In this document: piece by piece, positions 6,318 to 27,701 of the stretch
Layout: each line of letters starts with the position of its first letter
Position numbering within the stretch: position 1 is the first letter of the stretch
Assembly (NCBI GenBank): GCA_937930535.1
Contig: CALGKJ010000179.1
Span: forward strand, 1 to 38,161
DNA from: an uncultured Clostridia bacterium
GTDB taxonomy: Bacteria; Bacillota; Clostridia; Lutisporales; Lutisporaceae
Reading direction: 5' to 3'
DNA length: 38,161 nt
Notes under the pieces: generated by a model
Told to the model about the DNA's origin: nothing
Databases searched by the model: none
What the model saw: only the letters and a program-made list of their open reading frames with translations
Position numbers and translations under genes: made by a program

Positions 6318-6737
6318 CTAATGTCTTACTCCAAAGGATATTTGATGCAGTGCTTCTCCAGCTTCATCTTCAAATATCGCTTCTACTGCAATATCACCTA
6401 TAGCAATTATTCCTACAAGCTTGTTGTTTTCTATCACTGGTAATCTTCTGATTTGATGCTCTGCCATCAAATCAGCAACCTCGTGTACATCCATATCTGG
6501 TGATACTGAAGTTACCTTAGTAGTCATAACAGAAGATATACGCTGATTTGGATCTTGGCCTTTGGCAACATTCCTTAGAACTATATCTCTATCTGTAACT
6601 ATGCCAACAACATTATCGTTTTCAACTACAGGAATACAACCAACATCTAATTGATCCATAATAGTTGCAGCTTTTATAACTGTATCACTAGGTTTTACAG
6701 TTCTTACATCAGTAGTCATTATTTCCTTAATTCTCAC
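6318..6737 (-). CDS. CBS-domain pair protein
   Basis: A protein of about 139 residues made almost wholly of two CBS motifs: MTTDVRTVKPSDTVIKAATIM...GIVTDRDIVLR, then MTTKVTSVSPDMDVHEVADLMAEHQIRRLPVIENNKLVGIIAIGDI. Stand-alone CBS pairs bind adenine nucleotides or related ligands and act as energy or redox sensors; the ligand here is unknown. The frame extends to ATG 6776, but AGGATG (6744-6749) lies 6 bases before GTG 6737, so GTG 6737 is the preferred start. Two direct copies of a 16-base motif lie 32-73 bases upstream of that start and may be regulatory. The gene is divergent from the sigma-factor operon. Confidence 0.88.
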   Translation of the reverse strand: MRIKEIMTTDVRTVKPSDTVIKAATIMDQLDVGCIPVVENDNVVGIVTDRDIVLRNVAKGQDPNQRISSVMTTKVTSVSPDMDVHEVADLMAEHQIRRLPVIENNKLVGIIAIGDIAVEAIFEDEAGEALHQISFGVRH

Positions 6738-6768
6738 GAAAATCATCCTTTCATGAAATAGATTATGG

Positions 6769-6810
6769 CAATACATTATTGCAATTCATTGCGACAATAC
6801 ATTATTGCAA
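6769..6810. repeat. Two direct copies of CAATACATTATTGCAA
   Basis: The 16-mer occurs at 6769-6784 and 6795-6810, a spacing of 26 bases, in the divergent region between the CBS gene and the ECF sigma operon. It resembles a tandem operator but no regulator is identified. Confidence 0.5.
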
Positions 6811-6909: not shown

Positions 6910-6937
6910 TGAAACTTTTTCAATTTTTTTTGTGTAT
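6910..6937 (+). promoter_or_regulatory. ECF-type promoter of the sigma-factor operon
   Basis: TGAAAC (6910-6915), 16 bases, then GTGTAT (6932-6937). The same architecture and flanking bases recur before gerW at 8688-8715. It resembles the Bacillus ECF consensus TGAAAC-N16-CGTA, which supports autoregulation by the sigma factor encoded directly downstream. The GTG at 6932 lies in the -10 and cannot be the translation start. Confidence 0.75.
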
Positions 6938-6964
6938 AGTATAGTGAAGTACGGGGGTGATGCT

Positions 6965-7522
6965 ATGAATGTGGACATAAATGTAATAAAAAAGTGCAAA
7001 AAAAATGATAAAAACGCATTCATGGAGCTGTTTAAGCAGTATGAGAGATACTTATACAAGCTTTGCTACAGCTATGTTCAGAACGAACAGGATTCCTTGG
7101 ACATTATGCAGGAAGTTTACATAAAAATATTTAAAAACATAAATAAATTCGATACAAATATGCCATTTCACCCTTGGATAAGAAGAATTGCTGTAAATAC
7201 CTGCTTAAACCACAAGAGAAGCCTTAAATACAATACCATCTCTCTCAGCGGCGGAAGTGATGAGTATCAAGCCTTAGAAGAACAGCTTGCGGCAGATACT
7301 GATATCGAACAATATATAGAAAACATGGATTTAGAGCGTATTGTTAAACAGCAGCTCGACACAATGTCCCCAAAGCATAGGATGGTAATAATACTAAGAT
7401 ATTATGAGGGGCTAAGCTATGATGAAATAGCCGAAATGCTGGAGCTGCCATTAGGAACAGTTAAAACTGATCTTTATAGAGCACGAAATGCCCTTAAAAA
7501 TAAATTAGCAGGTATAGTATAG
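6965..7522 (+). CDS. ECF-type RNA polymerase sigma factor
   Basis: A 185-residue group IV sigma factor. Region 2 covers about residues 18-86 (AFMELFKQYERYLYKLCYSYV, DIMQEVYIKIF, WIRRIAVNTCLNHKR) and region 4 about 125-182 (LSYDEIAEMLELPLGTVKTDLYRARNALK), a helix-turn-helix. The short linker (LSGGSDEYQALEEQ) is typical of ECF factors. ATG 6965 is chosen because GGGGGTGA precedes it, while the longer frame would begin inside the promoter. The zinc-finger anti-sigma gene follows after 37 bases. The matching promoters here and before gerW suggest it transcribes both its own operon and gerW. Confidence 0.93.
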   Translation: MNVDINVIKKCKKNDKNAFMELFKQYERYLYKLCYSYVQNEQDSLDIMQEVYIKIFKNINKFDTNMPFHPWIRRIAVNTCLNHKRSLKYNTISLSGGSDEYQALEEQLAADTDIEQYIENMDLERIVKQQLDTMSPKHRMVIILRYYEGLSYDEIAEMLELPLGTVKTDLYRARNALKNKLAGIV

Positions 7523-7528
7523 TTTTAG

Positions 7529-7544
7529 AGTTGGTTATCTATAA
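7529..7544 (+). repeat. Second copy of the dispersed 16-mer AGTTGGTTATCTATAA
   Basis: Exact copy of 748-763, here between the sigma and anti-sigma genes and directly before the AAGGAGGAGG ribosome site. No inverted partner is visible next to it. Confidence 0.6.
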
Positions 7545-7559
7545 GAAGGAGGAGGAATT

Positions 7560-8000
7560 ATGAGCTGTAAATTCGATCAGGAAATAATCCAGAGATATAT
7601 AGACAATGATATTGATCCTCTTGAATTAATATTTCTAAAGGAGCATATTAAATACTGTGCAGACTGCAAAAGAGAAGTAGAGCTGCTTACTATTACCGAT
7701 CAAAAGCTTTTTAATGTATGTAATGATATAGATCTGCCCTTTGATCTTGATTTTCTGGCAGAGAAGGTAATGAAACAGTGTGATGAGGAGAAGAAGAATC
7801 GAAGCGGCGTTAGTTCAGCAATGTACAAAGGTGCAATAATAAGTAAGGGTATAGCCATAAGTCTTTCGAATTATATTAAATTTATTCCGGGAACAAGGCT
7901 GATTTCTAAGGGAATAAATGCATCAACAGAATTTATAGGCAAGAATACAAAGACATTTTTTAAGAATAAAATAGAAAAAGTCTTTGCTGATTTAATATAA
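7560..8000 (+). CDS. Zinc-finger anti-sigma factor (ZAS/zf-HC2 type)
   Basis: A 146-residue protein with an N-terminal ZAS-like domain: C3, then H29-x3-C33-x2-C36 (HIKYCADC), the usual zinc-binding arrangement of anti-sigma factors that hold ECF sigma factors inactive. It directly follows the sigma gene, with a strong AAGGAGGAGG ribosome site. The C-terminal half (about residues 85-146) is basic and only moderately hydrophobic; I see no convincing transmembrane helix, so it may be cytoplasmic or peripherally membrane-bound. The signal that releases the sigma factor cannot be read from sequence. The zinc-binding cysteines allow a redox response as in RsrA-type proteins, but that is speculation. 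Confidence 0.82.
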   Translation: MSCKFDQEIIQRYIDNDIDPLELIFLKEHIKYCADCKREVELLTITDQKLFNVCNDIDLPFDLDFLAEKVMKQCDEEKKNRSGVSSAMYKGAIISKGIAISLSNYIKFIPGTRLISKGINASTEFIGKNTKTFFKNKIEKVFADLI

Positions 8001-8013
8001 GGGGGGTGCTTAA

Positions 8014-8679
8014 ATGTTTGTAGTAGTTTTCATACTTAAGCTGCTTCTTTATTTATTTCTTGCATTTATTTCGTTTGTTTTACTTATTTTATTATTGCCT
8101 GTTACATATTCAGGAGAAGTACTATTTGCAGGGGGAGTTGCAGCTAATTATAGATTTGGCTGGCCTTGGAAAATTTTCAATGTAAAAGGCAGCTACAACG
8201 AAGATAAGCTTGAAATGGGATTATACCTGGCTAATCTTAGAATTCTAAAGCTAAACCTTGATAAAATGGAAAATCAATTTAAGGATAAAAAAGTTAATAA
8301 AGAAGATAAGCCAAAAAATGAAAGTAAAAAAGAAAAAAAGGAAGCTAAAAATTTGGGAGATTTTTTTGATACAGGTTTATTAAAAGAGTTTTTAGCTTAC
8401 GCTAAAAGAATCCTAAAAATATTAAAACCCAAATATATGCATCTTAAAGGTACTTACGGCTTTGAAGATCCTGCACTAACCGGAATGGTATGCGGGGCTG
8501 TAAATGTTGTAAATGCTGTAGTACCAAATGCCAAAATAGACCTTTATCCCGACTTTACCGATGAGGTACTAGAAATAGACTTTAAGGCAGAGGGCAGAGT
8601 AGTAGCTGGCCGTCTTTTATTTCAAACCTTGAGAACTTTCCTGAAAAAGGATATAAGGAAAAAAATATTTAAAAAATAA
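8014..8679 (+). CDS. DUF2953 (YtfI-like) membrane protein
   Basis: A 221-residue protein with a strong N-terminal membrane segment (about residues 3-30), a lysine-rich linker (about 87-112) and a C-terminal region containing YGFEDPALTGMVCGAVN, characteristic of DUF2953. In Bacillus subtilis the homologue YtfI is encoded directly before ytfJ (gerW), and the same order is kept here. It starts 13 bases after the anti-sigma stop behind GGGGGGTG and so belongs to the sigma operon. Function unknown; a role linked to sporulation or the envelope is inferred from context only. Confidence 0.85.
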   Translation: MFVVVFILKLLLYLFLAFISFVLLILLLPVTYSGEVLFAGGVAANYRFGWPWKIFNVKGSYNEDKLEMGLYLANLRILKLNLDKMENQFKDKKVNKEDKPKNESKKEKKEAKNLGDFFDTGLLKEFLAYAKRILKILKPKYMHLKGTYGFEDPALTGMVCGAVNVVNAVVPNAKIDLYPDFTDEVLEIDFKAEGRVVAGRLLFQTLRTFLKKDIRKKIFKK

Positions 8680-8687
8680 TGAAAAAA

Positions 8688-8715
8688 TGAAACCTTTTCA
8701 AAAAACACAGTGTAT
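8688..8715 (+). promoter_or_regulatory. ECF-type promoter of gerW
   Basis: TGAAAC (8688-8693), 16 bases, GTGTAT (8710-8715), followed by a leader of about 70 bases. Spacing and the surrounding ATGAAAC-YTTTTCAA block match the promoter at 6910-6937. Confidence 0.75.
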
Positions 8716-8792: not shown

Positions 8793-9173
8793 ATGGAAAA
8801 CAAAACACCAGTAAATGAAAGCTTGGAGACTTTATTCAGTCATCTTCAAAAATTTTTAAGCACTGAAACAGTAGTAGGTGAGCCAATTGTCGTTGGAGAA
8901 ACAACACTAATCCCAATAATAACAGTATCATTTGGCTGCGGCGGCGGCGGTGGAACAGGCAATGATGAGAAGGGCAACGGCGGCTCAGGAACAGGAGTAG
9001 GAGTAGGAGCAAGAATAAAGCCCGATGCAGTATTAGTTATAAAGGGCGATTCAGTAACTATGCTTCCTGTAAACAATAAATGCGGCTTGGATAAGCTTGT
9101 AGGAATGGTTCCAGAAATAGTTAAAAAGTTCAAAATCAAAAAAGACAAGGTTGAAGAAGTAACAGAAGAGTAA
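8793..9173 (+). CDS. gerW: GerW/YtfJ family sporulation protein
   Basis: A 126-residue protein with the conserved N-terminal helix (SLETLFSHLQKFLSTETVVGEPIVVGETTLIPI), a glycine-rich central segment (FGCGGGGGTG...GGSGTGVGVGARIKPDAVLVI) and the end motif VNNKCGLDKLVGMVPEIVKK. This is the Spore_YtfJ family; in Bacillus subtilis GerW is made in the forespore and affects germination. A perfect GGAGGAAA ribosome site lies 7 bases before ATG. The gene has its own ECF-type promoter (8688-8715), unlike the forespore-sigma control known in Bacillus, and is followed by a terminator. It implies a spore-former, although the family also occurs in some non-sporulating Firmicutes. Confidence 0.9.
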   Translation: MENKTPVNESLETLFSHLQKFLSTETVVGEPIVVGETTLIPIITVSFGCGGGGGTGNDEKGNGGSGTGVGVGARIKPDAVLVIKGDSVTMLPVNNKCGLDKLVGMVPEIVKKFKIKKDKVEEVTEE

Positions 9174-9179
9174 AATATA

Positions 9180-9218
9180 AAAAGTCTTAGTTAATGCACT
9201 GCGTTGACTAAGACTTTT
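9180..9218 (+). terminator. Terminator after gerW
   Basis: AAAAGTCTTAGT (9180-9191) pairs perfectly with ACTAAGACTTTT (9207-9218) across a 15-base loop. Confidence 0.75.
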
Positions 9219-10963: not shown

Positions 10964-11018
10964 ATAAAATATGGTAAATAAGGGTGAGTCATACAAAAGC
11001 AATAAAGGAGGAAATCAA

Positions 11019-14000
11019 ATGAAGAAATTTAAACAGATCTTATCAAAGCTTTTGACGTTTATTTTTATGTTCAGCCTGATATTAAATACAGGCTTCAATA
11101 CTGTTTCTGCTCAAACTGTTACAAAAAAATTGGTGGCAGCTTTTGAACATGCTTTACTGTTAAAGGATGACGGAACTGTATGGGCTTGGGGAAACGATGC
11201 TTTTGGACGGCTGGGAAATGGAACAAGTGCTTATAATGGTATACCTCTGCAAGTAGTTGGACTGAATAATGTAATAGACATAGATAGCAGCAATTTTCAT
11301 TGCATAGCACTTAAAGCTGATGGAACAGTATGGACTTGGGGAGATAATGGCTATGGACAGTTAGGAGATGGAACTAATATAAACAGACGTACACCAGTGC
11401 AGGTACTAAGCAATGTAAAATCAATATCGGCAGGCTACTATAGCAGTATAGCTATAGCAAAGGATGGTACTGCATGGATGTGGGGATATAATATTAATGG
11501 ACAGCTAGGAGATGGAACAAATGCAAACAAAAATATACCAGTGAAGGTAGCTTCATTAACTGATGTTAAGAAAGTTATAACAAATGATGATCATAGTATG
11601 GCTTTAAAGAATAATGGTGATGTCTATGCTTGGGGTAGAAATAATTGCGGACAGCTTGGAAATGGCTATGAAACAGATACAACCATACCTGTCAAGGTTT
11701 TGGATTTAACAAATGTTAAAGATATTGCCTGCGGTTATGGCAGCAGCTTGGCACTAAAAGCTGATGGAACAGTGTGGAGCTGGGGCGATAATTGCTATGG
11801 GCAGTTAGGCATTGGGAATAATATCAATAAGAAAGTACCCCAAAAGGTTAATAATCTTACTGATATTGATGCCATAGTAAGTAATAATAATTATGGTTTT
11901 ATGGCATTAAATACTGATGGTACAGTATGGAGCTGGGGATATAATATTTATGGTCAGCTAGGGGATGGAACTACAAGTAATATAAATAGTCCAAAGCAAG
12001 TAACAGGATTAACTAACGTATCAGAAATAAAGAGTACAGGAAGCTTTAGTATAGCTAAAAAAGCTGACGGAACAGTATGGACATGGGGGTATAATGCTTT
12101 TGGTCAGCTTGGAGATGGTACTTTTGCAAATAGAGCTGAACCCCAGCAGATAAATGGAATTAGTGAAGTGTCTGTAATCGCATGTAATGCAAATTATGTA
12201 TTAGTAATAAAAAACGACGGAAGATTATATGGATGGGGTCGTAATATATACGGACAGCTTGGTGACGGCTCAGTATTTTATAGAAGCAAGCCTATGATAA
12301 TACCAGGATTAGAAAACGTTAGCAAGATAGACGGTTTTGGAAATCATGCAGTAGCTTTAAAAGATGATGGAACAGTATGGTCTTGGGGCAGTAACAAATA
12401 TGGACAGCTTGGTATAGGAACAAATGTGGAAAAAAAAGATACGCCGACACTTGTAACAGGTCTAAGTAATGTAATTGACATAAGCTGCAACTACCATACT
12501 ACTTTAGCCTTAAAAAGTGACGGAACAGTATGGGCATGGGGATATAATGGTTATGGACAGCTAGGTAATAACACTAATACAAACAGTAATATACCTGTAC
12601 AAGTATCAGGATTAGAAGGCGTTACAAAAATATTAATTAAAGGGGAACACTGTCTTGCACTAAAAAGTGACGGTACAGTATGGGCATGGGGTCAAAATTA
12701 TTATGGACAGCTAGGTAATAATACCACAGTAAACAGCAATGTACCTGTAAAGGTATTCGGGTTAAACAACATTGTAGATATTGCAAGCGGATATAATAAT
12801 AGTATGGCATTAAATAGTGAAGGAAAAGTGTTGAACTGGGGAAACAACAGCGGCGGACAGCTAGGCAATAATAATCAAGGAGTTGATGCATTGGTACCAG
12901 TGTATACGACCAATAGCATAAGTACCAGTAAAATACATTCTGGCTATAGTTCAAGCTATGAAATAAAAACAAATGGCTCAGTATATTCATATGGATACAA
13001 TAGTTTTGGGCAGCTAGGCATAGGCAATACTAATAATCAACCTAATCCAGCAAATATAACAATTGCCAGCCCAATAATAAAGCTGGATGCATATGTTGAT
13101 TATGCAACAGCACTAGCAGCAAACGGCAATGTATATTCATGGGGTGCAAATCATGCTTGTCAGCTAGGCGATGGAACAACAGTAGATAAGCCAAGTCCAG
13201 TCCAAGTAGTTGGACTAACCAATATCATAGATATTCTCATAGGTGTGGGTCATAACTTGGCACTAAAAAGTGATGGAACAGTATGGACATGGGGATTTAA
13301 CCAGTTTGGTCAATTAGGAGATGGCACTTTAGACAATAAAAGTACTCCAGTCAAGATATCAAATATGGACAATGTAAAGTCTTTTTTTCAAACTGGAAAT
13401 ACCAGCTATGCAGTAAAAAATGATGGAACAGTTTGGAGCTGGGGGCGAAATTCATTTGGCTTATTAGGTAATGAACGACAAATTTTATACACTGCAACTC
13501 CAGTACAAACCCAGATTGTACTAAGCACTGTAGAAATAAAATCAGCTCAAATAGACACAATATCTAAGAATAGTATCCAAGCATCATGGGACAGCGGCTC
13601 AACAGGGGAAACATGCTATATGCTGGCGGCTTTTGATAAAAGCAGTAATCTGATCAAACAAAATCAGTGGACAAGCAATCTGAGTGATACAATAACAGAC
13701 CTTGACGCTGCAACCGCATATACACTAAAGGTTAAGGCAAAGGATAGCTATGGCTACATTACTGATTGGTATGAGATCGGCACAGCGGCTACATTAGAAG
13801 AGCCGGATCTTGGTATATGGTCAACAAAGGCAAATATGCCAACTGCAAGATATGGTATGGCAGTAGTACAAGTAAACAATAGGATATACAGCATTGGAGG
13901 ATTTACAAATACTACATATACAAATGTAACAGAGGAATATAACTCCCTCACAAATGAGTGGACAACTAAAGCAAATATGCCAACTGCAAGACGTTTTCTA

Positions 14001-15167
14001 GGGGCAGCGGCAGTAAATAACAAAATATACGCAATAGGAGGATATACCGCATATGGTATAACCAATAAAGTAGAAGAATATGATCCAGAAACAGACCAAT
14101 GGACAACAAAAGCAGACATGCCAACCCCAAGGCATTATTTGGGACTGGCAATAGTAAATAATAAAATATATGCAATAGGAGGGTATACAGTTAACGGCAG
14201 GACAAACATAGTAGAAGAATACGATCCAGAAACAAATACATGGACAACAAAAGCAAGTATGCCAACCCCACGTTATGGCTTGGGAGCGGCAGCAGTAAAT
14301 AATAGAATATATGCAGTAGGAGGATATACAGAAAACGGCAGAATAAATACAGTGGAAGAATATGACCCAGTATCAGACCAATGGACAACAAAAGCAAGTA
14401 TGCCAACTGCAAGATATACTTTTGGAACAGCAGTTGCAAATAACAATGTATACATAATCGGAGGAAGCTTAAGCAGTGGAAGTACAAATATAGTAGAAAA
14501 GTATAATCCAGCCATAGATCAATGGGAAACAGTACTAAGTATGCCAACCACAAGATATCATTTGGGTGTAACGGCAGTTAATGACAAAATATATGCGATA
14601 GGCGGATTCTCTTCAATCGCTGGATTGCTCAATAAAGTAGAAGCATGGGGAAGCTCTTATTCGGGCATAGATTTATACTGCGAAATCGAAGATATGAATT
14701 TGTCGGCAGTAATAGATCCAACGATTTTATATGACAATCTAACTGCTGACAACACAATTATTACAGAATATGATACTACTGCTCCTGTTATTTCACATGC
14801 TTATTTATCCGCTGACAATACATATATTGATATAGTATTTGATGAAGGTGTATATGGAATGAATGACGGTACTACGGAACTTACAGCAGATAAGCTGGCA
14901 ATTAAAGTTACCAAAAACAAAGCTGATTCTACAGCAGGTGTAAAAATAAGCTCAATAAAGCAAAATAACAGCAGTAAAGAAAGCTCCGCTTCCGCTCTTG
15001 CAGGAGGAGAAACCATAATCAGAGTGTTCTTAAAAATCAGCGGAAAAGCTGATGAAATAGAAACCATTCAAATAACCCCTTATGATAAAGCTTCTATTTA
15101 TGATATAACAGGTAACTCAATGAAGATTGAACAAACCATTATTAAAACAGTTAACCACATTGAATAA
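11019..15167 (+). CDS. Large secreted double-propeller protein (RCC1 and Kelch repeats)
   Basis: A 1382-residue exported protein. Residues 1-31 are a signal peptide (basic start, hydrophobic core, VSA cleavage site). Residues about 40-825 hold 16 RCC1-type repeats of about 50 residues with the core VWxWGxNxxGQLGdGT. A fibronectin-III-like domain follows at about 828-925, then six Kelch repeats (about 938-1206: MPTxRyxxGxAxVNNKIYAIGGy...VEEYDPxTDQWTTKA). The C-terminal 165 residues resemble a bacterial Ig-like or SbsA-type domain (TTAPVISHAYLSADNTYIDIVFDEGV). No SLH, LPXTG or transmembrane anchor is visible, so it may be released or bound non-covalently. ATG 11019 is chosen for its AAAGGAGG; an upstream in-frame start at 10971 is poorer. 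Likely binds proteins or glycans; no enzyme motif seen. Confidence 0.9.
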   Translation: MKKFKQILSKLLTFIFMFSLILNTGFNTVSAQTVTKKLVAAFEHALLLKDDGTVWAWGNDAFGRLGNGTSAYNGIPLQVVGLNNVIDIDSSNFHCIALKADGTVWTWGDNGYGQLGDGTNINRRTPVQVLSNVKSISAGYYSSIAIAKDGTAWMWGYNINGQLGDGTNANKNIPVKVASLTDVKKVITNDDHSMALKNNGDVYAWGRNNCGQLGNGYETDTTIPVKVLDLTNVKDIACGYGSSLALKADGTVWSWGDNCYGQLGIGNNINKKVPQKVNNLTDIDAIVSNNNYGFMALNTDGTVWSWGYNIYGQLGDGTTSNINSPKQVTGLTNVSEIKSTGSFSIAKKADGTVWTWGYNAFGQLGDGTFANRAEPQQINGISEVSVIACNANYVLVIKNDGRLYGWGRNIYGQLGDGSVFYRSKPMIIPGLENVSKIDGFGNHAVALKDDGTVWSWGSNKYGQLGIGTNVEKKDTPTLVTGLSNVIDISCNYHTTLALKSDGTVWAWGYNGYGQLGNNTNTNSNIPVQVSGLEGVTKILIKGEHCLALKSDGTVWAWGQNYYGQLGNNTTVNSNVPVKVFGLNNIVDIASGYNNSMALNSEGKVLNWGNNSGGQLGNNNQGVDALVPVYTTNSISTSKIHSGYSSSYEIKTNGSVYSYGYNSFGQLGIGNTNNQPNPANITIASPIIKLDAYVDYATALAANGNVYSWGANHACQLGDGTTVDKPSPVQVVGLTNIIDILIGVGHNLALKSDGTVWTWGFNQFGQLGDGTLDNKSTPVKISNMDNVKSFFQTGNTSYAVKNDGTVWSWGRNSFGLLGNERQILYTATPVQTQIVLSTVEIKSAQIDTISKNSIQASWDSGSTGETCYMLAAFDKSSNLIKQNQWTSNLSDTITDLDAATAYTLKVKAKDSYGYITDWYEIGTAATLEEPDLGIWSTKANMPTARYGMAVVQVNNRIYSIGGFTNTTYTNVTEEYNSLTNEWTTKANMPTARRFLGAAAVNNKIYAIGGYTAYGITNKVEEYDPETDQWTTKADMPTPRHYLGLAIVNNKIYAIGGYTVNGRTNIVEEYDPETNTWTTKASMPTPRYGLGAAAVNNRIYAVGGYTENGRINTVEEYDPVSDQWTTKASMPTARYTFGTAVANNNVYIIGGSLSSGSTNIVEKYNPAIDQWETVLSMPTTRYHLGVTAVNDKIYAIGGFSSIAGLLNKVEAWGSSYSGIDLYCEIEDMNLSAVIDPTILYDNLTADNTIITEYDTTAPVISHAYLSADNTYIDIVFDEGVYGMNDGTTELTADKLAIKVTKNKADSTAGVKISSIKQNNSSKESSASALAGGETIIRVFLKISGKADEIETIQITPYDKASIYDITGNSMKIEQTIIKTVNHIE

Positions 15168-15936: not shown

Positions 15937-17448
15937 ATGCAGAAGTTAAACCTAGTGACACTGGAAAAAAAGCTGTGGGACTGTGCCGACATCCTGAGAG
16001 GTACTCTCAACTCAACACAGTACATGGAATACATATTTGGAATGTTATTTCTCAAAAGAATCAACGACCAGTTTGACGCAGAAAGAGAAGAAAAGAAAAA
16101 GCAGTTTTCAAAGCATCCAGCAGAAGCACTTGATAGAATATTGGAGGATGCCAAGGCTTACAGAACCTTCTTTATTCCCAAGCAAGCCAGATGGCAGAAC
16201 TTTAAGGATCTGAACCTAAACATAGGCGCAGAGCTTGACAAAGCCTTTAAAGCCATAGAGGACGAGCCCAAAAATGCCGAGCTGGTAGGGGTGCTCAGCA
16301 CAGCCAACTATAACGATAAGGAAAGAGTCCCTGACGGCAAGCTTAACCAACTGCTGCAAATCTTTGATGCAATGAATCTTTCCAACGAAGGGCTGGAAAG
16401 TCCCGATATACTTGGAGATGCATACATGTATCTTATTAAGAAGTTTGCAGACGATGGCGGAGCCAAGGGCGGAGAATTCTACACACCCAAGGAAATAAAG
16501 GAAGTCATGGTAAAGCTTCTAAAGCCACAAGAGGGAATGAGCATATATGACCCCTGCGCTGGCTCTGGCGGCTTTTTAATCAGCACGATAGAATATGTAA
16601 AAGCCAAAAATCAAAACCATAGAAATTTACAGATTTACGGACAAGAAATAAATCTTACAACCTGGGCAATTGCAAAGCTTAATATGCTGCTGCATGATGT
16701 ATCCGGCTCAACTATCTGGAAGGGCGACACCATAAGAGAGCCTAAAAATACAGATGGTTCAATACTAAAGACCTTTGATATGGTGCTTTCAAACCCTCCC
16801 TTCTCACTAAAAAACTGGGGCAGGGAAGCCGCCGAAAAGAATGACTACAATAGATTCAACTACGGTGTAGCACCAGCTTCTTATGGAGACTTGGGATTTG
16901 TTCAGCATATGCTTGCATCATTAAACTCCAAGGGCATCATGGCAAGCGTTGTACCTCACGGAATACTTTTCAGAGGCGGAGAGGAAGGAAAGATAAGACA
17001 GGGGATGCTGGAGGATGATATGTTTGAAGCAGTTATAGGTTTTCCTCAGAATTTGTTTTATGGGGCATCTATACCAGCGGCAGTCATAATATTAAATAAA
17101 AATAAATCACAAGACAAAAAGGGCAAAGTCTTATTTATAGAAGCCTCCCAAGGCTTTATAAAGGACGGCAACAAGAATAAGCTTAGACCCGAGGACATAG
17201 AGCATATTGTAAAAGCATATGAAACCTTTGCAGACGAAGACAAATTTGCCAAGGTGGCTACCCTTGAAGATATAAGGAAAAATGACTATAACCTGAATAT
17301 AACCAGATATGTAGATACCTCCCAAGAGGAAGAGGAAATAGATATAGCGGAGGTAATCAGCAGGCTTTCACAAAGAGAACAGGAGCTTGCAGAGTCCAAG
17401 GAAAAGATAAACTCATTCCTGCAACAGCTTGGATTTGAGAGGATATAG
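15937..17448 (+). CDS. hsdM: Type I restriction-modification DNA methyltransferase subunit HsdM
   Basis: A 503-residue N6-adenine methyltransferase. The N-terminal HsdM_N domain (LEKKLWDCADILRGTLNSTQYMEYIFGMLFLKRINDQF) is followed by the catalytic domain with the S-adenosylmethionine motif DPCAGSGGF at about 205-213 and the catalytic NPPF at 286-289. It methylates adenine in the target set by HsdS and is required for both modification and restriction complexes. The start has TAGGGGG 7 bases upstream. The stop is 11 bases before the preferred hsdS ATG. Both catalytic motifs are intact. It heads an operon hsdM-hsdS-hsdR-metallopeptidase. Confidence 0.97.
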   Translation: MQKLNLVTLEKKLWDCADILRGTLNSTQYMEYIFGMLFLKRINDQFDAEREEKKKQFSKHPAEALDRILEDAKAYRTFFIPKQARWQNFKDLNLNIGAELDKAFKAIEDEPKNAELVGVLSTANYNDKERVPDGKLNQLLQIFDAMNLSNEGLESPDILGDAYMYLIKKFADDGGAKGGEFYTPKEIKEVMVKLLKPQEGMSIYDPCAGSGGFLISTIEYVKAKNQNHRNLQIYGQEINLTTWAIAKLNMLLHDVSGSTIWKGDTIREPKNTDGSILKTFDMVLSNPPFSLKNWGREAAEKNDYNRFNYGVAPASYGDLGFVQHMLASLNSKGIMASVVPHGILFRGGEEGKIRQGMLEDDMFEAVIGFPQNLFYGASIPAAVIILNKNKSQDKKGKVLFIEASQGFIKDGNKNKLRPEDIEHIVKAYETFADEDKFAKVATLEDIRKNDYNLNITRYVDTSQEEEEIDIAEVISRLSQREQELAESKEKINSFLQQLGFERI

Positions 17449-17459
17449 GGGGAATGAGT

Positions 17460-18725
17460 ATGACTAAGATTAGAGAAGGTTATAAGGAGACGGAGATTGG
17501 GGTTATTCCTATGGATTGGGAGGTTGCAAAAGTGAACGATATTGCTACATTTGTAGGAAGTGGAATAACTCCCAAAGGTGGTCAGAATGTTTACACTTCC
17601 GCTGGAGTACCCTTTATCAGAAGTCAGAATGTACATCCGAATGCACTAAAGTTAGACGATGTAGTATATATTACAGATGAAATTAACAGCAAAATGAGAA
17701 GGACTATTTTAAAAGAAAAAGATGTCTTACTAAACATCACTGGTGCTTCAATTGGCAGGTGCGCTATTGTTCCTGTTGGTTTTGGTAAGGGTAATGTTAA
17801 TCAACATGTTTGCATAATTAGGGTTGATGATACTTATTCACCATTTTTTCTAAGTCAATTTTTAAATTCAAAGTTAAGTCGAAAACAAATAGATTCTTTT
17901 AATGGTGGATCGAGTAGAGAAGGATTGAATTTTCAGCAAGTTAGAAGCATATTATTATCAAAACCTCCGCTCCAAGAACAACAACGCATAGCAGAGATTC
18001 TCGCAACAACAGACGACCACATTGAAAAACTGGACAAGACCATTGAGGACTACCAACTTCTAAAAAAAGGCATGATAAAAAAATTTTTAACAGAAGGCAT
18101 TGGGTATACGGAGTTTAAAGATACTGAGGTTGGAAGGATACCTAAGGAGTGGGAAGTTAAGGAGTTGAGTGAAATAAGTGAAATAGTTACTGGTAGCACA
18201 CCCAAAACATCAGACAAAGAGAATTATGGAAATGAGTATATATGGGCTTCTCCTGCTGACTTAGGTAAAACAAAATATATTAATGTAACTACTAAAATGC
18301 TTAGTGAGGAAGGATTTTCAAAATCAAGACAACTACCTATAGGAACTATATTAGTTACTTGCATTGGTTCAACTATCGGGAAATTAGGTATTTTGAGTGA
18401 TATAGGAAGCACTAATCAACAAATAAATTCAATGATATGTAATGAAAATGCGTATAACGAATATGTTTACTATGCACTTGATTTTTATTTTGTGAAGTAT
18501 ACTTCTTATATTTCAACTCAGGCAGTGCCAATTATAAATAAAACAGTGTTTTCTAAACTTAAACTACCAATTCCACCACTACAAGAACAACAACAAATAG
18601 CCTCAATACTATCCGAGCTAGACAACAAAATTAACCTCTACCAAAAACAACGAGAAGACTACACCCAACTAAAAAAAGCACTAATGGAACAACTCCTAAC
18701 AGGAAAAATCAGAGTAAACCAATAA
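17460..18725 (+). CDS. hsdS: Type I restriction-modification specificity subunit HsdS
   Basis: About 421 residues in the classical two-half design. Each half has a target-recognition domain opening with a similar phrase (GVIPMDWEVAKVNDIA; GRIPKEWEVKELSEIS) and closing with a conserved helix (PPLQEQQRIAEILATTDDHIEKLD; PPLQEQQQIASILSELDNKINLY), the spacer helices that set the distance between the two half-sites. The two recognition domains are more AT-rich than the flanking genes, which fits exchange of specificity modules. ATG 17460 is preferred over 17454 because the AGGGGG lies 7 bases before it. Recognition sequence cannot be predicted by eye. No second or silent hsdS copy is in the window. 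Confidence 0.95.
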   Translation: MTKIREGYKETEIGVIPMDWEVAKVNDIATFVGSGITPKGGQNVYTSAGVPFIRSQNVHPNALKLDDVVYITDEINSKMRRTILKEKDVLLNITGASIGRCAIVPVGFGKGNVNQHVCIIRVDDTYSPFFLSQFLNSKLSRKQIDSFNGGSSREGLNFQQVRSILLSKPPLQEQQRIAEILATTDDHIEKLDKTIEDYQLLKKGMIKKFLTEGIGYTEFKDTEVGRIPKEWEVKELSEISEIVTGSTPKTSDKENYGNEYIWASPADLGKTKYINVTTKMLSEEGFSKSRQLPIGTILVTCIGSTIGKLGILSDIGSTNQQINSMICNENAYNEYVYYALDFYFVKYTSYISTQAVPIINKTVFSKLKLPIPPLQEQQQIASILSELDNKINLYQKQREDYTQLKKALMEQLLTGKIRVNQ

Positions 18726-18754
18726 TATACAGATAAGAAGGGGGGATGCCTACA

Positions 18755-21700
18755 ATGACAGACTATCTAGGCAATGAATATACCCTTGTAGAAAAACCAG
18801 CTATAGATTATTTAGTAAACACCTTAGGCTATGACTATATAGATGGCACAAAGCTGACTCCCGCCTATGGCGAAAGGGAGTCCTTTCGTGATGCAGTCCT
18901 TGTAAACAGACTAAGAACTGCACTCAAACGCCTAAACCCTTGGATGAACGAGCAGTCCCTAAGCACAACAGTTAGATTCCTTTTAAACAGTCAGTCTCTT
19001 GGTACTTCTCTATTGGAAATAAATGAGAAGATACATAAAGCATTAGTAGACTTGGAATTTACAGTACAGCAGGAAGTAAAGGGACAAAAGAAAAACCATA
19101 CAGTAAGGTTTATAGACTTTGACGATATCAGCAATAATGATTTTTTAGCTGCCAGACAATACGAGGTACAGGGCATCAACAAAACCATAGTGCCGGATAT
19201 TGTAATATTTATCAATGGAATACCTGTAGTAGTAATAGAAGCCAAGTCACCCTTCAAAGAAAATGCAGAAAATACTAAGGCTGGCAAAAAGGATGCCTAC
19301 AACCAGTTGAGAAGATATATGGACATCAGAGACGGCTCTGTATCAGAGGGAGCAGAGAGACTTTTTCATACAAACTTTTTTACAGGCATTATCAATAAAT
19401 ACCATGCATATGCAGGTACTATTAGCAGCAGCTATGACTACTACCTAGAGTGGAAAGACCCCTATCCCTTCAAAAAAGAGGATATGGAAGACATAGAAAA
19501 CAATCAACAAAACCTGTTTTTGCAAGGAATGCTTGAAAAAAGCAATCTGCTGAAAATCATGCAGTTCTTTATCATCTTTGAAACTGAAAGCGACGTAAGG
19601 ATAAAAAAGCTGGCAAGATATCAGCAGTTCAGAGCCTGCATGAAAGCCTTAAAAAGAATCGAAAAGGGCAAAACCCCCTTAGAAAAGGGAGGCGTTATCT
19701 GGCATACCCAAGGATCAGGCAAGTCTCTCAGTATGGTAATGCTGGCAAGAATGATCAGAAGAACAAAAGAGCTTCAAGATACCATGCTTGTAGTTGTTAC
19801 AGACAGGATTGATCTGGATAAGCAGATTTATAATACCTTTTCAAGGGTATTTCCTGCTGAATACACTCTGGCGGAGTCTAATCTGGATAAGCTGCTTACT
19901 AGAGCTGAAACAGTACAGGAAATGAAAACCCTGCTGTCTATGGCACAAGCCAAAATAATCTGCACCACCATACAAAAATTTCAGTGCAAAGCAGACGAAA
20001 ATCCTATTCTGGAGGACGGAACACAAGCTTCGGCACTGTTTTTTGACAAGGAAATAGAGGTGCTTACAAATAAATCAAAGGTTATTGTATTTACTGACGA
20101 GGCTCACAGAAGCCAGTACTCCAATCTCTCCATGAACATGAGAAAGGCACTGCCCAATGCCGCTTTTATAGGCTTTACGGGTACACCTATTGAGAAGGAT
20201 GACAAGTCAACCTATAGAACCTTCGGAGCTTTAATCGACAGCTATACAATTTCACAGGCAGTTGAGGACGGCAATACGGTAGCTATTGTATACGAGGGCA
20301 GACGACAAGACCTTCATATTATTCAAGACAAGCTGGATGAGGATTTTAACGAGTACTTTAAGGACAAGAACGAGGATGAAAAGGAAGCCATAAAAAAGAA
20401 ATATTTCAACAGGCTTTCACTATCTGAGGCCGACGACAGAATCAACGATATTGCCAGAGATATGCTGCTTCACTATAGAGACAACAGTCATAAGCTTGGC
20501 TTTAAGGCACAGCTTGTTACTGTTTCAAGACTTGCATGTGTAAAGTACTATGATGCACTGCAAAAGCATATGCCGGAAATCTTTGGAGATAATGCTATAG
20601 AAATAAGGATCATATACTCCTGTGAAAACAACGAAGAGCCATATCTGGTAAAACACAGAACATCAAAAGCAGAGCAGGATCAAATAATAAGCAGGTTTAA
20701 AAAGGAAATAGAAAAGGACAGGCTGTGCATAATCATAGTTAAGGACATGCTGCTGACAGGCTTTGATGCACAAATAGAGGATGTAATGTATCTGGACAGA
20801 CCACTAAAGGAGCATACTCTATTACAGGCAATAGCAAGAGTAAACAGAACCTATGACAAGGAATACAAAGCCATTGACGAGCATGGAAACGAAATAAAGC
20901 ACCAGAGAACAAAAAGCTACGGCAGAGTTGTAGACTATTTTGGTATAACCAGACATTTGGATGAAGCACTAAGAATATTTGACAAAGAAGATGTTGGCGA
21001 ACCAATGGAGAATATTGACTCCCTATTCAAAAAGATGCTGGACTACAAGGAAGCAGTAATGAGAATCTTTGCAGGTGTAAACAAAAGCGATCTGGATGAG
21101 CTTATGAATGTACTGAAGCCTGAAAACAAAAGGGCGGAGTTTGATATGGCATATAAAAGGTTTGCAGTTGCGGTAAATGCTCTGATGCCATCACATGCAA
21201 GGCAGGAGGATTTAAACGATTTAAAATGGATGTCATATATCCGTGCTGGAGCAAAGGCAAGGTTTGAGCCTGAGAATGCCATTGACATAAGCGACTGCGG
21301 AGAAAAAGCCAGAGAGCTTATTTCGGCACATCTGAAATCACAGGGAGTTTATCAGTGGATAGAGCCGATCACACTATTTGACAAAGACTTTAAAGCCAAG
21401 ATAAATCACGGTTCAGATGAAGCTATTGCTTCTACTATGGAGCATGCTATCAAACATGCAATAAGTGTAAGGATGAGTAATAATCCAGTACATTATACCT
21501 CCCTGCTGGAAAGACTAATGAGGATACTAGAGGAAACAAATATGAACTGGGAGGAAAGAAGAAGACAGCTTGAGCAGTTTGTTGAGAGAGAAATGAACCA
21601 CAGTGAGGAAAATCTGGTTAAACAGCATAACTTAAAGGATAAAAGGCAGCTTGCCATATTTGAAACAATACAAAAAGCTCTGAAAAAAGAAAGGGCGGCA

Positions 21701-21955
21701 GAGGAAGCAGTATATTATTTCGATTCCAGCCAAGAGGATGTCATAAGAAATATCACTTTGGCTATTGAGGAGGTTATTCTAAACACCAGAGTAAAGGGGT
21801 TTAGGAACAATCCCACCAGAATATCAGAAATGGAAACCGCCGTTTATAATATGCTGATGTCAAGGTACTATAATGAGCTGGAGTATGATGCTATTGCACA
21901 GCTTACTGTTCCGCTGATTGATCTGGCTAAGATTCACTATGAAGATATGGAGTAG
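18755..21955 (+). CDS. hsdR: Type I restriction-modification endonuclease/translocase HsdR
   Basis: About 1066 residues. The N-terminal nuclease domain shows the PD-(D/E)xK pattern with D148 (PDIVIFINGIP) and E162-A-K164 (VVVIEAKSP). The superfamily 2 motor follows, with Walker A GSGKS at 320-324, DEAH at 448-451, motif III GFTGTP and motif VI AIARVNRTYD. The C-terminal helical region would join the HsdM/HsdS complex. It cleaves unmodified DNA after ATP-driven translocation. ATG 18755 is preferred over 18746, which touches the GGGGGG ribosome site. All key residues appear intact, so the system is probably active. Confidence 0.96.
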   Translation: MTDYLGNEYTLVEKPAIDYLVNTLGYDYIDGTKLTPAYGERESFRDAVLVNRLRTALKRLNPWMNEQSLSTTVRFLLNSQSLGTSLLEINEKIHKALVDLEFTVQQEVKGQKKNHTVRFIDFDDISNNDFLAARQYEVQGINKTIVPDIVIFINGIPVVVIEAKSPFKENAENTKAGKKDAYNQLRRYMDIRDGSVSEGAERLFHTNFFTGIINKYHAYAGTISSSYDYYLEWKDPYPFKKEDMEDIENNQQNLFLQGMLEKSNLLKIMQFFIIFETESDVRIKKLARYQQFRACMKALKRIEKGKTPLEKGGVIWHTQGSGKSLSMVMLARMIRRTKELQDTMLVVVTDRIDLDKQIYNTFSRVFPAEYTLAESNLDKLLTRAETVQEMKTLLSMAQAKIICTTIQKFQCKADENPILEDGTQASALFFDKEIEVLTNKSKVIVFTDEAHRSQYSNLSMNMRKALPNAAFIGFTGTPIEKDDKSTYRTFGALIDSYTISQAVEDGNTVAIVYEGRRQDLHIIQDKLDEDFNEYFKDKNEDEKEAIKKKYFNRLSLSEADDRINDIARDMLLHYRDNSHKLGFKAQLVTVSRLACVKYYDALQKHMPEIFGDNAIEIRIIYSCENNEEPYLVKHRTSKAEQDQIISRFKKEIEKDRLCIIIVKDMLLTGFDAQIEDVMYLDRPLKEHTLLQAIARVNRTYDKEYKAIDEHGNEIKHQRTKSYGRVVDYFGITRHLDEALRIFDKEDVGEPMENIDSLFKKMLDYKEAVMRIFAGVNKSDLDELMNVLKPENKRAEFDMAYKRFAVAVNALMPSHARQEDLNDLKWMSYIRAGAKARFEPENAIDISDCGEKARELISAHLKSQGVYQWIEPITLFDKDFKAKINHGSDEAIASTMEHAIKHAISVRMSNNPVHYTSLLERLMRILEETNMNWEERRRQLEQFVEREMNHSEENLVKQHNLKDKRQLAIFETIQKALKKERAAEEAVYYFDSSQEDVIRNITLAIEEVILNTRVKGFRNNPTRISEMETAVYNMLMSRYYNELEYDAIAQLTVPLIDLAKIHYEDME

Positions 21956-21959
21956 TTAA

Positions 21960-22673
21960 ATGAAGCTATCATATGATTATGGAACGCAGACAATAGAATT
22001 TACAACAATATTCAAGAAACGAAAAACACTAACAATCGAAGTAGAAGCTCCAAAAACCATAACAGTTATAGCACCGGAGGGAACAACTGAGGATAAAATA
22101 CTTGAGACAGTCAAAACCAAATCAAAATGGATAGTACAAAAGCTTTTTGAGATAAGGGAAATGGAGTATAGAAAAAGAGTAAGGCAGTATGTCAATGGAG
22201 AAGCCTTTATATACATGGGCAGAAACTACAGCTTGCAGATAGTTCAGGACGACAAAGTATCACTGCCCGAGGCAAAGCTAATCAGAGGCAGGTTTTATGT
22301 TTATACCTATTCAAAGGATGAGGAAATAGTAAGACGAGCTTTGGAAAACTGGTACAAGGATAAGGCAGAGGAAAAAATCAGAGAAAGAGTGAAGTACTAC
22401 CAGTCTTATTTTGATATAAAACCAGCTAAGATTAGCATAAAAGATCAGCAAAAACGCTGGGGAAGCTGTACCTCCAAAAAGGAGCTTCTATTTAACTGGA
22501 AGTGCATAATGGCACCCTCCCCAGTGCTTGACTATATTGTGGTGCATGAGATGTGCCACCTAGCTTATATGAATCACTCAAAGGAGTTCTGGCTGTTATT
22601 GAAAAGGGTGCTTCCCGACTATGAAGACAGAAAGAACTGGCTGCGTAATAATGGGATTAAATATGATTTATAG
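21960..22673 (+). CDS. YgjP-like M48-type metallopeptidase, fourth gene of the hsd operon
   Basis: A 237-residue protein of the YgjP/WLM-like family. It contains QKRWGSCTSKKELLFNWKCIMAP, then the zinc-binding HEMCH at 196-200 (VVHEMCHLAYMNHSKEFW) with H206 as the likely third ligand. The ATG begins 4 bases after the hsdR stop, with GGAG inside the end of hsdR, so translation is probably coupled. Such putative metallopeptidases are frequent next to type I restriction genes, but their role is not established; control of HsdR levels by proteolysis is one possibility. A weak hairpin at 22705-22729 follows and may end the operon. Confidence 0.87.
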   Translation: MKLSYDYGTQTIEFTTIFKKRKTLTIEVEAPKTITVIAPEGTTEDKILETVKTKSKWIVQKLFEIREMEYRKRVRQYVNGEAFIYMGRNYSLQIVQDDKVSLPEAKLIRGRFYVYTYSKDEEIVRRALENWYKDKAEEKIRERVKYYQSYFDIKPAKISIKDQQKRWGSCTSKKELLFNWKCIMAPSPVLDYIVVHEMCHLAYMNHSKEFWLLLKRVLPDYEDRKNWLRNNGIKYDL

Positions 22674-25052: not shown

Positions 25053-27701
25053 CTATCGCTTTTTTTCTCCAAAAAGTTCATCCATCTGTTGTTTGGTTTC
25101 AACAGTTAATGTATCCTTTAGACAATTAATATTTACTGTTTGTTTTGCTTGATAAGCTTGGACAACCATTTCATTAGCTCTTTCAATTTCTTCCTTAAGC
25201 TCTCTGGCGGATAATAAGGAACAGCCTGCGCCCCTGATAATAATCTGCTGCAAACCGTCTGAGGTTGCAACCACTATATTATATTTTTTCTGATTGTCAC
25301 GGGCAAATTTTTCAATATACTGATCCGCTGTTTGTGCTTCTTTGGTATATACCACATGGATATTATAGTAGTCGATTACTTCTTCAAGATGCCCCTCAAC
25401 ACGATAAGCATCAAACACCACAATAATATGACATTTGCGAATAGCCTGATAATTACTTAGTGAATCAAGCAATTTCATTCTTGCACCGTCCATATTTCCA
25501 TCAGCAAGGGTTTTAAGCTCAGACCATGCATAGATAATATTATAGCCATCTACAAGAAGATATTCTTCCTTAGCTTCTTTTGGTTCGTTTGTATAGGCAG
25601 CCGATTTATAATAACTTTCGGGAGCTGTTCTTCGTTTTTGCCAAACAGATTTTTTTCCTTGATTTGCATAATAGGTTCGCTCAAGGATCTTATCAATTTC
25701 CTCTGGGTCAATCCATTTGTCCTCTGAATACGAAGCTTGATTTACAGATGCTTCTTCCAATAAGCTATTCTTTTTCTGAAAGCAGCTTTCAATATGCATA
25801 TGGTTTTTTACTTCATCCCAACTAACCAAAAAGCTTGTGCCATTTGCACAAAAGACAGATTCTGCTGGATTTCCCAAGTCCCTTTCAGAGTCATAGCCTA
25901 TCATTTTTATGATTTCTTCAGTATTATGACAGGGTTCATACCCCTTTAGACTGCAAAAGAGCCTGCCCTGACCCCTAGTATAGGCAGTCACATCCTTTTG
26001 ATAGTTTCTCATGGCAGCAACAGGAGCTGTCCCTGTAAGAACTGCTATTTCACCTTCTATATGTGAAATTTGGCAAGTCCCATGCATTTTCTCAACGTCC
26101 GTCATAGCACGGCCTACCATTTTTTCAGGCAGCTCAAGATGAAAGGCATAATACGGTTCTAATAATATAGACTCCGCTTCCATTAAACCCTGACGTACTG
26201 CACGATAGGTAGCCTCTCTAAAGTCACCGCCTTGTGTATGTTTATTATGTGCTTTGCCTGAGACTAAAGTAATTTTCATGTCTGTAATTGCCGACCCTGT
26301 AAGAACCCCTTTATGAACCTTTTCTTCCAGATGGGATAAAATAAGTCTTTGCCAGCTTTTACCCAGCAAATCCTCACTGCATTCTACCCCAAACTGTAGA
26401 CCGCTTCCACGCTCATCCGGTTCCATTAACAAGTGAACCTCAGCATAATGCCGCAAGGGTTCAAAGTGTCCTACTCCTTCTACCACATTTGCAATAGTCT
26501 CTTTATAAACAATCTTACCTGAATCAAATGATACCTCTATACCAAAGCGGCTTTGTATAAGACTTTGCAGAATTTCGGTTTGCACCTCGCCCATAATCTG
26601 CACCTTGATTTCCTTAAGCTGCTCATCCCAGACAATATGAAGCTCAGGATCTTCCTCCTCCAAGAGGCGCAGCTTAGGTATCATTACTCTTGGGTCACAG
26701 CCTTCTGGAAGTATAATTCGATAAGTCAATACAGGCTCAAGTATAGGTATATTTGAAGCTTCCTCTATCCCAAAACCTTCTCCCGGTTTAGTTTGACTAA
26801 GTCCTGTTACTGCACATACAGAACCTGCCTCTATCTCATTTACAGCTTCAAATTTCTGTCCTGAATAGATTCGGATCTGATTAACCTTTTCTTCCCAAGC
26901 ACCGTTTTTCAAAGTATCTCTTACCTTAAGTATTCCGCCGGTAATCTTCATATAGGTAAGGCGGTTCCCTTGTTCGTCCCTGCTGATTTTGAATATTCTG
27001 GCTCCAAACTTTTCGGGGTAAGAAGGTGCTTCGGCATACTTCACAATATCTTGAATAAATGCCTCAATGCCTTCTAATTTCAAAGCTGATCCGAAAAAAC
27101 ACGGAAATACCTTGCGTTTTCTGATGGCTTTCTTAATCTGTGGGGTTAGGATATGTTCTGTTTCCAAATAGGCTTCCATGAGTGTTTCATCACACATAGC
27201 CAATTGCTCATTAAAAGCTTCTGTCTCGCCATGTCCGAATTCAATACACCCATCACCCAATTGTTTTCTTAATTCATTTATTATTTTTCCTTTGTCAGTC
27301 CCATTTTGGTCCATTTTATTTATAAATAAAAAAACCGGTATCTGATATATGGAAAGCAAACGCCATAAGGTTTTAGTATGCCCCTGTACGCCATCTACTC
27401 CGCTTATCACTAAGATGGCATAATCCAGCACTTGGAGTGTTCTCTCCATCTCCGTTGAAAAATCTACATGACCCGGAGTATCTAATAAGGTAATCTGTGT
27501 ATCAGCCACTTCGAATATAGCCTGCTTGGAAAAAATAGTAATGCCTCTTGCTCTTTCCAGCTCATAGTTATCCAAATAGGCGTCTTTATTGTCCACACGT
27601 CCCAATTTTCGTATTTTACCGCTTAAGTAAAGCAGACTTTCTGATAATGTTGTTTTACCTGCATCTACATGTGCTAATATCCCAATAACCAACTTTTTCA
27701 T
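25053..27701 (-). CDS. TetM-like ribosomal GTPase fused to a YacP/Rae1-like NYN nuclease domain
   Basis: An 882-residue protein. Residues 1 to about 640 are an EF-G-type translation GTPase of the TetM/TetO ribosomal-protection group: AHVDAGKT (10-17), DTPGH (74-78), NKMD (128-131), then domains II-V including MVGRAMTDVEKMHGTCQI and GQGRLFCSLKGYEP. Residues about 713-870 are a YacP-like NYN domain: LLVDGYNIIYAW, IVVFDAYRVEG, AQTADQYIEKFA and VATSDGLQQ, with acidic residues D718, D764, D793 and D815. Rae1/YacP of Bacillus subtilis is an endoribonuclease acting in the ribosomal A site. The fusion suggests a factor that binds stalled ribosomes and cuts the mRNA, or a tetracycline-protection protein with a recruited nuclease. 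AAGGATTG precedes the ATG. Confidence 0.88.
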   Translation of the reverse strand: MKKLVIGILAHVDAGKTTLSESLLYLSGKIRKLGRVDNKDAYLDNYELERARGITIFSKQAIFEVADTQITLLDTPGHVDFSTEMERTLQVLDYAILVISGVDGVQGHTKTLWRLLSIYQIPVFLFINKMDQNGTDKGKIINELRKQLGDGCIEFGHGETEAFNEQLAMCDETLMEAYLETEHILTPQIKKAIRKRKVFPCFFGSALKLEGIEAFIQDIVKYAEAPSYPEKFGARIFKISRDEQGNRLTYMKITGGILKVRDTLKNGAWEEKVNQIRIYSGQKFEAVNEIEAGSVCAVTGLSQTKPGEGFGIEEASNIPILEPVLTYRIILPEGCDPRVMIPKLRLLEEEDPELHIVWDEQLKEIKVQIMGEVQTEILQSLIQSRFGIEVSFDSGKIVYKETIANVVEGVGHFEPLRHYAEVHLLMEPDERGSGLQFGVECSEDLLGKSWQRLILSHLEEKVHKGVLTGSAITDMKITLVSGKAHNKHTQGGDFREATYRAVRQGLMEAESILLEPYYAFHLELPEKMVGRAMTDVEKMHGTCQISHIEGEIAVLTGTAPVAAMRNYQKDVTAYTRGQGRLFCSLKGYEPCHNTEEIIKMIGYDSERDLGNPAESVFCANGTSFLVSWDEVKNHMHIESCFQKKNSLLEEASVNQASYSEDKWIDPEEIDKILERTYYANQGKKSVWQKRRTAPESYYKSAAYTNEPKEAKEEYLLVDGYNIIYAWSELKTLADGNMDGARMKLLDSLSNYQAIRKCHIIVVFDAYRVEGHLEEVIDYYNIHVVYTKEAQTADQYIEKFARDNQKKYNIVVATSDGLQQIIIRGAGCSLLSARELKEEIERANEMVVQAYQAKQTVNINCLKDTLTVETKQQMDELFGEKKR

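Follow-up and report, generated by a model that had tools for sequence, protein, structure and literature searches.

A SigW-like ECF sigma factor of an uncultured Lutisporaceae bacterium very probably drives its own operon from one promoter, P1, and a gene of the GerW family from a second, P2. The gene read from P2, for which we coin the name GerW2, and the DUF2953 gene that precedes it are, by sequence and comparison, a diverged second copy of the ytfI–ytfJ (gerW) pair. The cluster lies in a window of 38,161 nucleotides, the whole stretch of DNA that was analysed, and its features are collected in Table 1.

Table 1. Features of the sigma–GerW2 unit and its immediate surroundings (window coordinates).
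Feature	Positions	Strand	Evidence
CBS-domain protein gene, divergent	6318..6776	-	PF00571
Promoter P1 of the sigma operon (predicted)	6910..6937	+	Exact match; equivalent site at 26 of 28 loci, 0.02 expected
ECF sigma factor, SigW-like, 185 residues, regions 2 and 4	6965..7522	+	Pfam Sigma70_r2 2.7e-16, r4_2 2.1e-17
Soluble zinc-type (class I) anti-sigma factor, 146 residues	7560..8000	+	zf-HC2 4.5e-6; RsiW domain 5wuq_C, E 2e-4
DUF2953 (YtfI-like) protein, 221 residues	8014..8679	+	PF11167 1.1e-10
Promoter P2 of the GerW-family gene (predicted)	8688..8715	+	Exact match; equivalent site at 25 of 28 loci, 0.04 expected
GerW-family paralog GerW2, 126 residues, soluble	8793..9173	+	PF09579 80.8 bits
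Terminator-like hairpin after GerW2	9180..9218	+	RNA fold -24.2 kcal/mol, z -7.2, T run at end

The sigma factor has the architecture of the ECF (group IV) proteins, with regions 2 and 4 only (PF04542 at residues 22–87, PF08281 at 126–177) joined by a short linker, and it scores 113.8 bits against the ECF model TIGR02937, for which the cut-off is 42.9. The start is placed at the ATG at 6965; a longer frame opening with GTG at 6932 would begin within the promoter. The anti-sigma factor carries the marks of the class I (ASDI, zinc) proteins: the N-terminal domain, the motif H29-x3-C33-x2-C36, and a gene beside that of the sigma factor. Residues C3, H29, C33, C36, and P110 are invariant (alignment A4). 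No membrane segment was found in this protein, the maximum hydropathy over 19 residues being at most 1.21 across 44 homologues. The DUF2953 protein has a single N-terminal hydrophobic segment (hydropathy 3.12 at residue 10), and a structure search returned no match to it among solved structures. GerW2 passes the Pfam gathering score of the Spore_YtfJ superfamily, 25 bits, by a wide interval; its matches to pseudoazurin in structural comparison were weak (E 0.009) and are taken as chance. The terminator-like hairpin closes the unit, parting GerW2 from the downstream yqeC and mocA-like genes.

On the other side of the unit, the divergent CBS-domain gene is a neighbour in Lutisporaceae only; synteny reveals other neighbours in Clostridium carboxidivorans, and the gene is placed outside the regulon. 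Upstream of it or at its start, the 16-base sequence CAATACATTATTGCAA occurs twice in identical form, at 6769–6784 and 6795–6810, 26 bases apart, each copy containing the palindrome CAATA-N3-TATTG. The pair is absent from the equivalent place in relatives, and is possibly an operator.

The two promoters are exact instances of TGAAAC-N16-GTGTAT, TGAAACTTTTTCAATTTTTTTTGTGTAT at P1 and TGAAACCTTTTCAAAAAACACAGTGTAT at P2. The preliminary description had drawn attention to these twins, and their equal spacing and matching flanks were found as described: both lie on the + strand, with a spacer of 16 bases, A-rich surroundings, and a T run after each. It had also called for a scan of the genome with the motif. 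A pattern search of all 4,688,476 bases (4.69 Mb in 252 contigs) returned P1 and P2 as the only exact copies, and the reversed pattern, which served as a control, gave two exact matches as well. The copy number within one genome is thus unremarkable and proves little. The striking point is rather the placement of the two copies, on the same strand, 1.8 kb apart, and ahead of consecutive transcription units.

It is the conservation of both sites across species that is decisive. GerW-family relatives were drawn from 80 loci of named genomes and from additional relatives, and the block of sigma, anti-sigma, DUF2953, and GerW-family genes was found at 27 further loci in several families (Lutisporaceae, Clostridium, Syntrophomonadaceae, and Anaerosolibacter). 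Its carriers include Lutispora saccharofermentans, L. thermophila, C. carboxidivorans, C. drakei, C. muellerianum, and C. neonatale, together with many uncultured relatives, one Syntrophomonadaceae bacterium, and Anaerosolibacter. With the window included, the pattern TGAAAC-N15..17-NKGTA precedes the sigma gene at 26 of 28 loci and the GerW-family gene at 25, against expectations of 0.02 and 0.04 from dinucleotide-shuffled versions of these stretches; the loci include close relatives and hence are not independent, and at least three families are represented. These counts support the proposal, made in the preliminary description, that the sigma factor would run its own operon with the anti-sigma and YtfI-like genes and, from a second promoter, the gene there called gerW. 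The strict pattern misses P1 at two loci (L116 and L122), and P2 is not recognisable at three that bear the sigma gene (L122, L138, and L151).

The –10 box at the scored loci is GTGTA or a near variant; at one locus (L110) it reads GGGTA in P1 and P2 alike, its relatives having mostly GTGTA. Flanking genes change between Lutisporaceae and Clostridium, and the four genes and two promoters remain together. Since the spacers of P1 and P2 are unlike each other and unlike between species, it is the two boxes that are conserved and not a copied block. This observation speaks against the suggestion that the twins are a relic of local duplication. Coincidence might be argued from the mere twelve fixed bases of the motif and from the equal number of reversed matches in the genome, but a chance origin is ruled out by the cross-species counts, and the probability that either accident explains the two sites is negligible.

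The predicted regulon looks confined to one locus with two promoters, because matches off the locus stay at the level of the control; pattern searches of this kind would miss targets with a drifted –10 box. Across the 80 loci (825 kb), 43 motif sites stand in the expected places and 3 elsewhere, with a single match to the reversed control, and one of the three is actually P1 lying 269 bases upstream (L124). A stricter pattern, TGAAACNTTN12,13GTGTAT, was applied to about 88 Mb from 18 genomes of Clostridium and Lutispora and matched 16 times. Fifteen of these matches fall at the sigma–GerW2 locus, the sole exception lying ahead of a transposase gene (G074:C17, L191), and the reversed form gave none in the same genomes. 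The 22 genomes of the family contain 26 motif matches, 16 at the locus and 10 off it, against 11 for the reversed control. A larger regulon was rejected on these grounds and on those of a relaxed search of the bacterium's own genome, which yielded 24 matches against 22 for the reversed control. The preliminary description had named the presence of the motif before many unrelated genes as counting against its own proposal; no such excess over the control is seen.

Two individual sites deserve mention. The best candidate in the bacterium's own genome, a one-mismatch site ahead of a diadenylate cyclase gene (L035), was rejected as a target because it is not conserved at that position in relatives. 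In another genome of the same genus, a perfect motif lies 33 bases before the gene for a 422-residue MFS transporter (L103; G001:C240:7791); this is a single case and may be chance.

No sigma ortholog was found in seven Clostridium-group genomes that carry GerW2. In one of them, DSM 17811 (L140), a contig end cuts the locus and the last 50 residues of the sigma factor are still present. Both the sigma gene and the P2 motif have been lost in C. acidisoli and C. akagii. A metagenome-assembled genome (L111) and C. frigoris (L130) lack the sigma gene and retain P2, and look like recent deletions; C. algoriphilum (L120) has a decayed remnant of the sigma gene, and C. chromiireducens (L132) has lost it and keeps a remnant of DUF2953, each with a perfect P2. 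The loci of these last four (L120:5110-5280, L130:5140-5200, L132, and L111) display a graded loss of sigma and anti-sigma genes in which GerW2 and its promoter are kept. Because P2 is kept in C. algoriphilum and C. chromiireducens without an intact sigma gene, some other sigma factor may read it in these species. The sigma-losing series provides natural material for asking what reads P2.

A broader form of this idea is that both promoters answer to some other ECF factor, such as a further SigW- or SigM-like protein with a preference for TGAAAC at –35, so that the operon belongs to a foreign regulon. The persistence of P2 in the two species just named is what one would then expect, and the –35 box is indeed common to the SigW promoter, TGAAACN16,17CGTA (PMC2375139). 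Such a regulon should, however, place the motif before other genes, and genome-wide this is not so. CGTA never forms the –10 box at the scored loci, and from family to family the sigma gene is accompanied by both motifs. Where the sigma gene is gone in C. acidisoli and C. akagii, P2 is gone as well. We regard control by a foreign factor as improbable; the adjoining sigma gene very probably encodes the factor that reads P1 and P2.

The nature of the second target requires revision. The preliminary description identified the gene at 8793 as gerW and saw in its arrangement a rewired sporulation circuit; neither proposal withstands comparison with the canonical gene. GerW2 scores 63.1 bits against the GerW model TIGR02874, below the equivalog cut-off of 116.3, and in the tree the canonical GerW clade (support 100/99) and the ECF-linked clade (100/97) are separate, the rows L220 and L222 labelled "canon" being GerW2 copies in reality. 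An intact canonical gerW, to which GerW2 is about 26% identical, lies on a separate contig of the same genome (G000:C216:3230-3652) in the order trpS–scpA–scpB–DUF2953–gerW, and it is this copy, not GerW2, that occupies the canonical place after scpA–scpB–DUF2953. No genuine promoter of the P1/P2 type was found upstream of canonical gerW among 19 loci; two motif matches were discarded, one lying within coding sequence (L203) and the other in the same coding stretch (L206). The statement that gerW is under forespore control in Bacillus was correct, but concerns the canonical gene, which is read by sigma-F and is dispensable for germination (PMC4366231). The spore reading is thus a case of mistaken identity due to the paralog.

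At least one Spore_YtfJ gene is present in 21 of the 22 family genomes, and most have two or three. Some Lutisporaceae contain a third type of DUF2953 and GerW-like pair, with no adjoining sigma gene (L075–L077, in G015, G005, and G010). Members of the family are also found in Methanosarcina, Fibrobacterota, and Marinimicrobia, so that membership does not imply a role in the spore.

That distribution, the intact canonical gene beside scpAB, and the position of GerW2 below the GerW cut-off and in the other clade make it very improbable that the spore gene gerW itself has moved under ECF control. What speaks for such a move is that GerW2 is a Spore_YtfJ protein with a YtfI-like partner, in an organism that is probably spore-forming, since its genome contains SpoIVA. 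A different possibility is that GerW2 serves the spore or its germination at another stage, with a stress input through the ECF factor, and that canonical gerW keeps the forespore expression. Clostridium and Lutispora are spore-forming genera, and most carriers of the ECF-linked version belong to them; SpoIVA would again be in accord. Nonetheless the predicted regulon includes no sporulation gene, and GerW2-like proteins without the sigma factor occur in Halanaerobiales and Syntrophomonas. A second spore copy is therefore considered unlikely, and a diverged paralog under its own ECF factor is the reading we retain.

From these comparisons we infer a mechanism in which the soluble zinc anti-sigma factor, encoded downstream, would hold the SigW-like sigma factor inactive until a signal, probably cytoplasmic, frees it. 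Freed sigma factor would then act at P1, from which the sigma, anti-sigma, and DUF2953 genes would be transcribed, with GerW2 reached by read-through. It would act at P2 too, leading to additional GerW2. The loop through P1 would constitute positive feedback, limited by the rising amount of inhibitor, and the two promoters would supply an excess of soluble GerW2 over its membrane-anchored partner DUF2953. The DUF2953/GerW2 pair would be the effector. Because the anti-sigma factor has no membrane segment, release by membrane proteolysis in the manner of SigW is very unlikely; the signal more plausibly arises in the cytoplasm. The families of DUF2953 and GerW adjoin also where the sigma gene is absent and at the canonical locus, suggesting that the two proteins probably act together.

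Among known systems, SigW and RsiW of B. subtilis are the nearest solved relatives (PDB 5wuq), with E 2e-30 for the sigma factor against 5wuq_A and, for the N-terminal domain of the anti-sigma factor, the value in Table 1. The likeness extends to the TGAAAC –35 box and to the autoregulated sigma/anti-sigma operon, here predicted. SigW is the best NCBIfam match of the sigma factor, but at 140.3 bits it falls below the cut-off of 209, and a second SigW equivalog comparison gave 132.6 bits where 243.1 are required. SigW recognizes CGTA at –10 rather than GTGTA, is freed by membrane proteolysis, whereas the anti-sigma factor here has no segment in the membrane, and controls dozens of genes, in contrast to the one locus predicted here.

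Soluble zinc anti-sigma factors are frequently redox sensors. Like those of the SigR–RsrA and SigE–ChrR pairs, the protein described here is soluble, has an Hx3Cx2C motif, and is encoded beside an ECF factor that is, by prediction, autoregulated. Its presumed zinc ligands (C3, H29, C33, and C36), however, resemble those of RsiW, where zinc is structural, and the predicted regulon, unlike theirs, has no thioredoxin or oxidative-stress gene. Positive autoregulation through a promoter with an AAC-type –35 box is typical of ECF sigma factors, if not universal, and the locus fits this pattern in promoter anatomy and in the conservation of P1, as far as sequence can tell. Redox sensing is not claimed, since the zinc may be purely structural, as it can be in RsiW (PMC7406223). 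The circuit type is ordinary, autoregulated ECF operons being common (about 55% of ECF factors with predictable targets; PMC8103513).

The ytfI–ytfJ (gerW) genes of Bacillus and the canonical DUF2953–gerW pair consist of the same two families in the same order as the pair in the window. The canonical pair follows scpAB and in Bacillus its gerW answers to forespore sigma-F (PMC4366231), whereas the pair in the window is a diverged paralog, predicted to be under an ECF factor, with a predicted promoter of its own before GerW2. The open literature searched contained no link of this kind between an ECF factor and ytfJ/gerW or DUF2953; a single paper in it names DUF2953.

Other features of the window lie apart from the unit. 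An EF-G or ribosomal-protection-like GTPase (25053–27701, – strand) is fused at its C-terminus to a YacP-like NYN nuclease domain (PF05991, 2e-52). The fusion is suggestive, since the YacP/Rae1 of Bacillus is a nuclease of mRNA linked to the ribosome. A 1398-residue, secreted-looking protein encoded at 10971–15167 (+) consists of 16 RCC1 repeats and, after them, Kelch repeats. Inspection by eye of translated reading frames indicates, at 15937–22673 (+), the methylase, specificity, and restriction subunits of a type I restriction-modification system, with a short metalloprotease-like gene after them.

The interest of the unit lies in its cargo, a second DUF2953/GerW pair that makes up the entire predicted output of a switch devoted to it. 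Three or more families of Clostridia retain this switch, C. carboxidivorans and C. drakei being among its carriers. We propose, tentatively, that it may be a widespread single-locus ECF switch of Clostridia in which a cytoplasmic zinc anti-sigma factor is the sensor and the YtfI–YtfJ paralog pair, the sole output, is an effector of stress response or membrane maintenance in growing cells. If this is true, the switch would provide a route to learning what the GerW/DUF2953 pair does, and the inducing condition, once found, would point to the role of that pair outside the spore.
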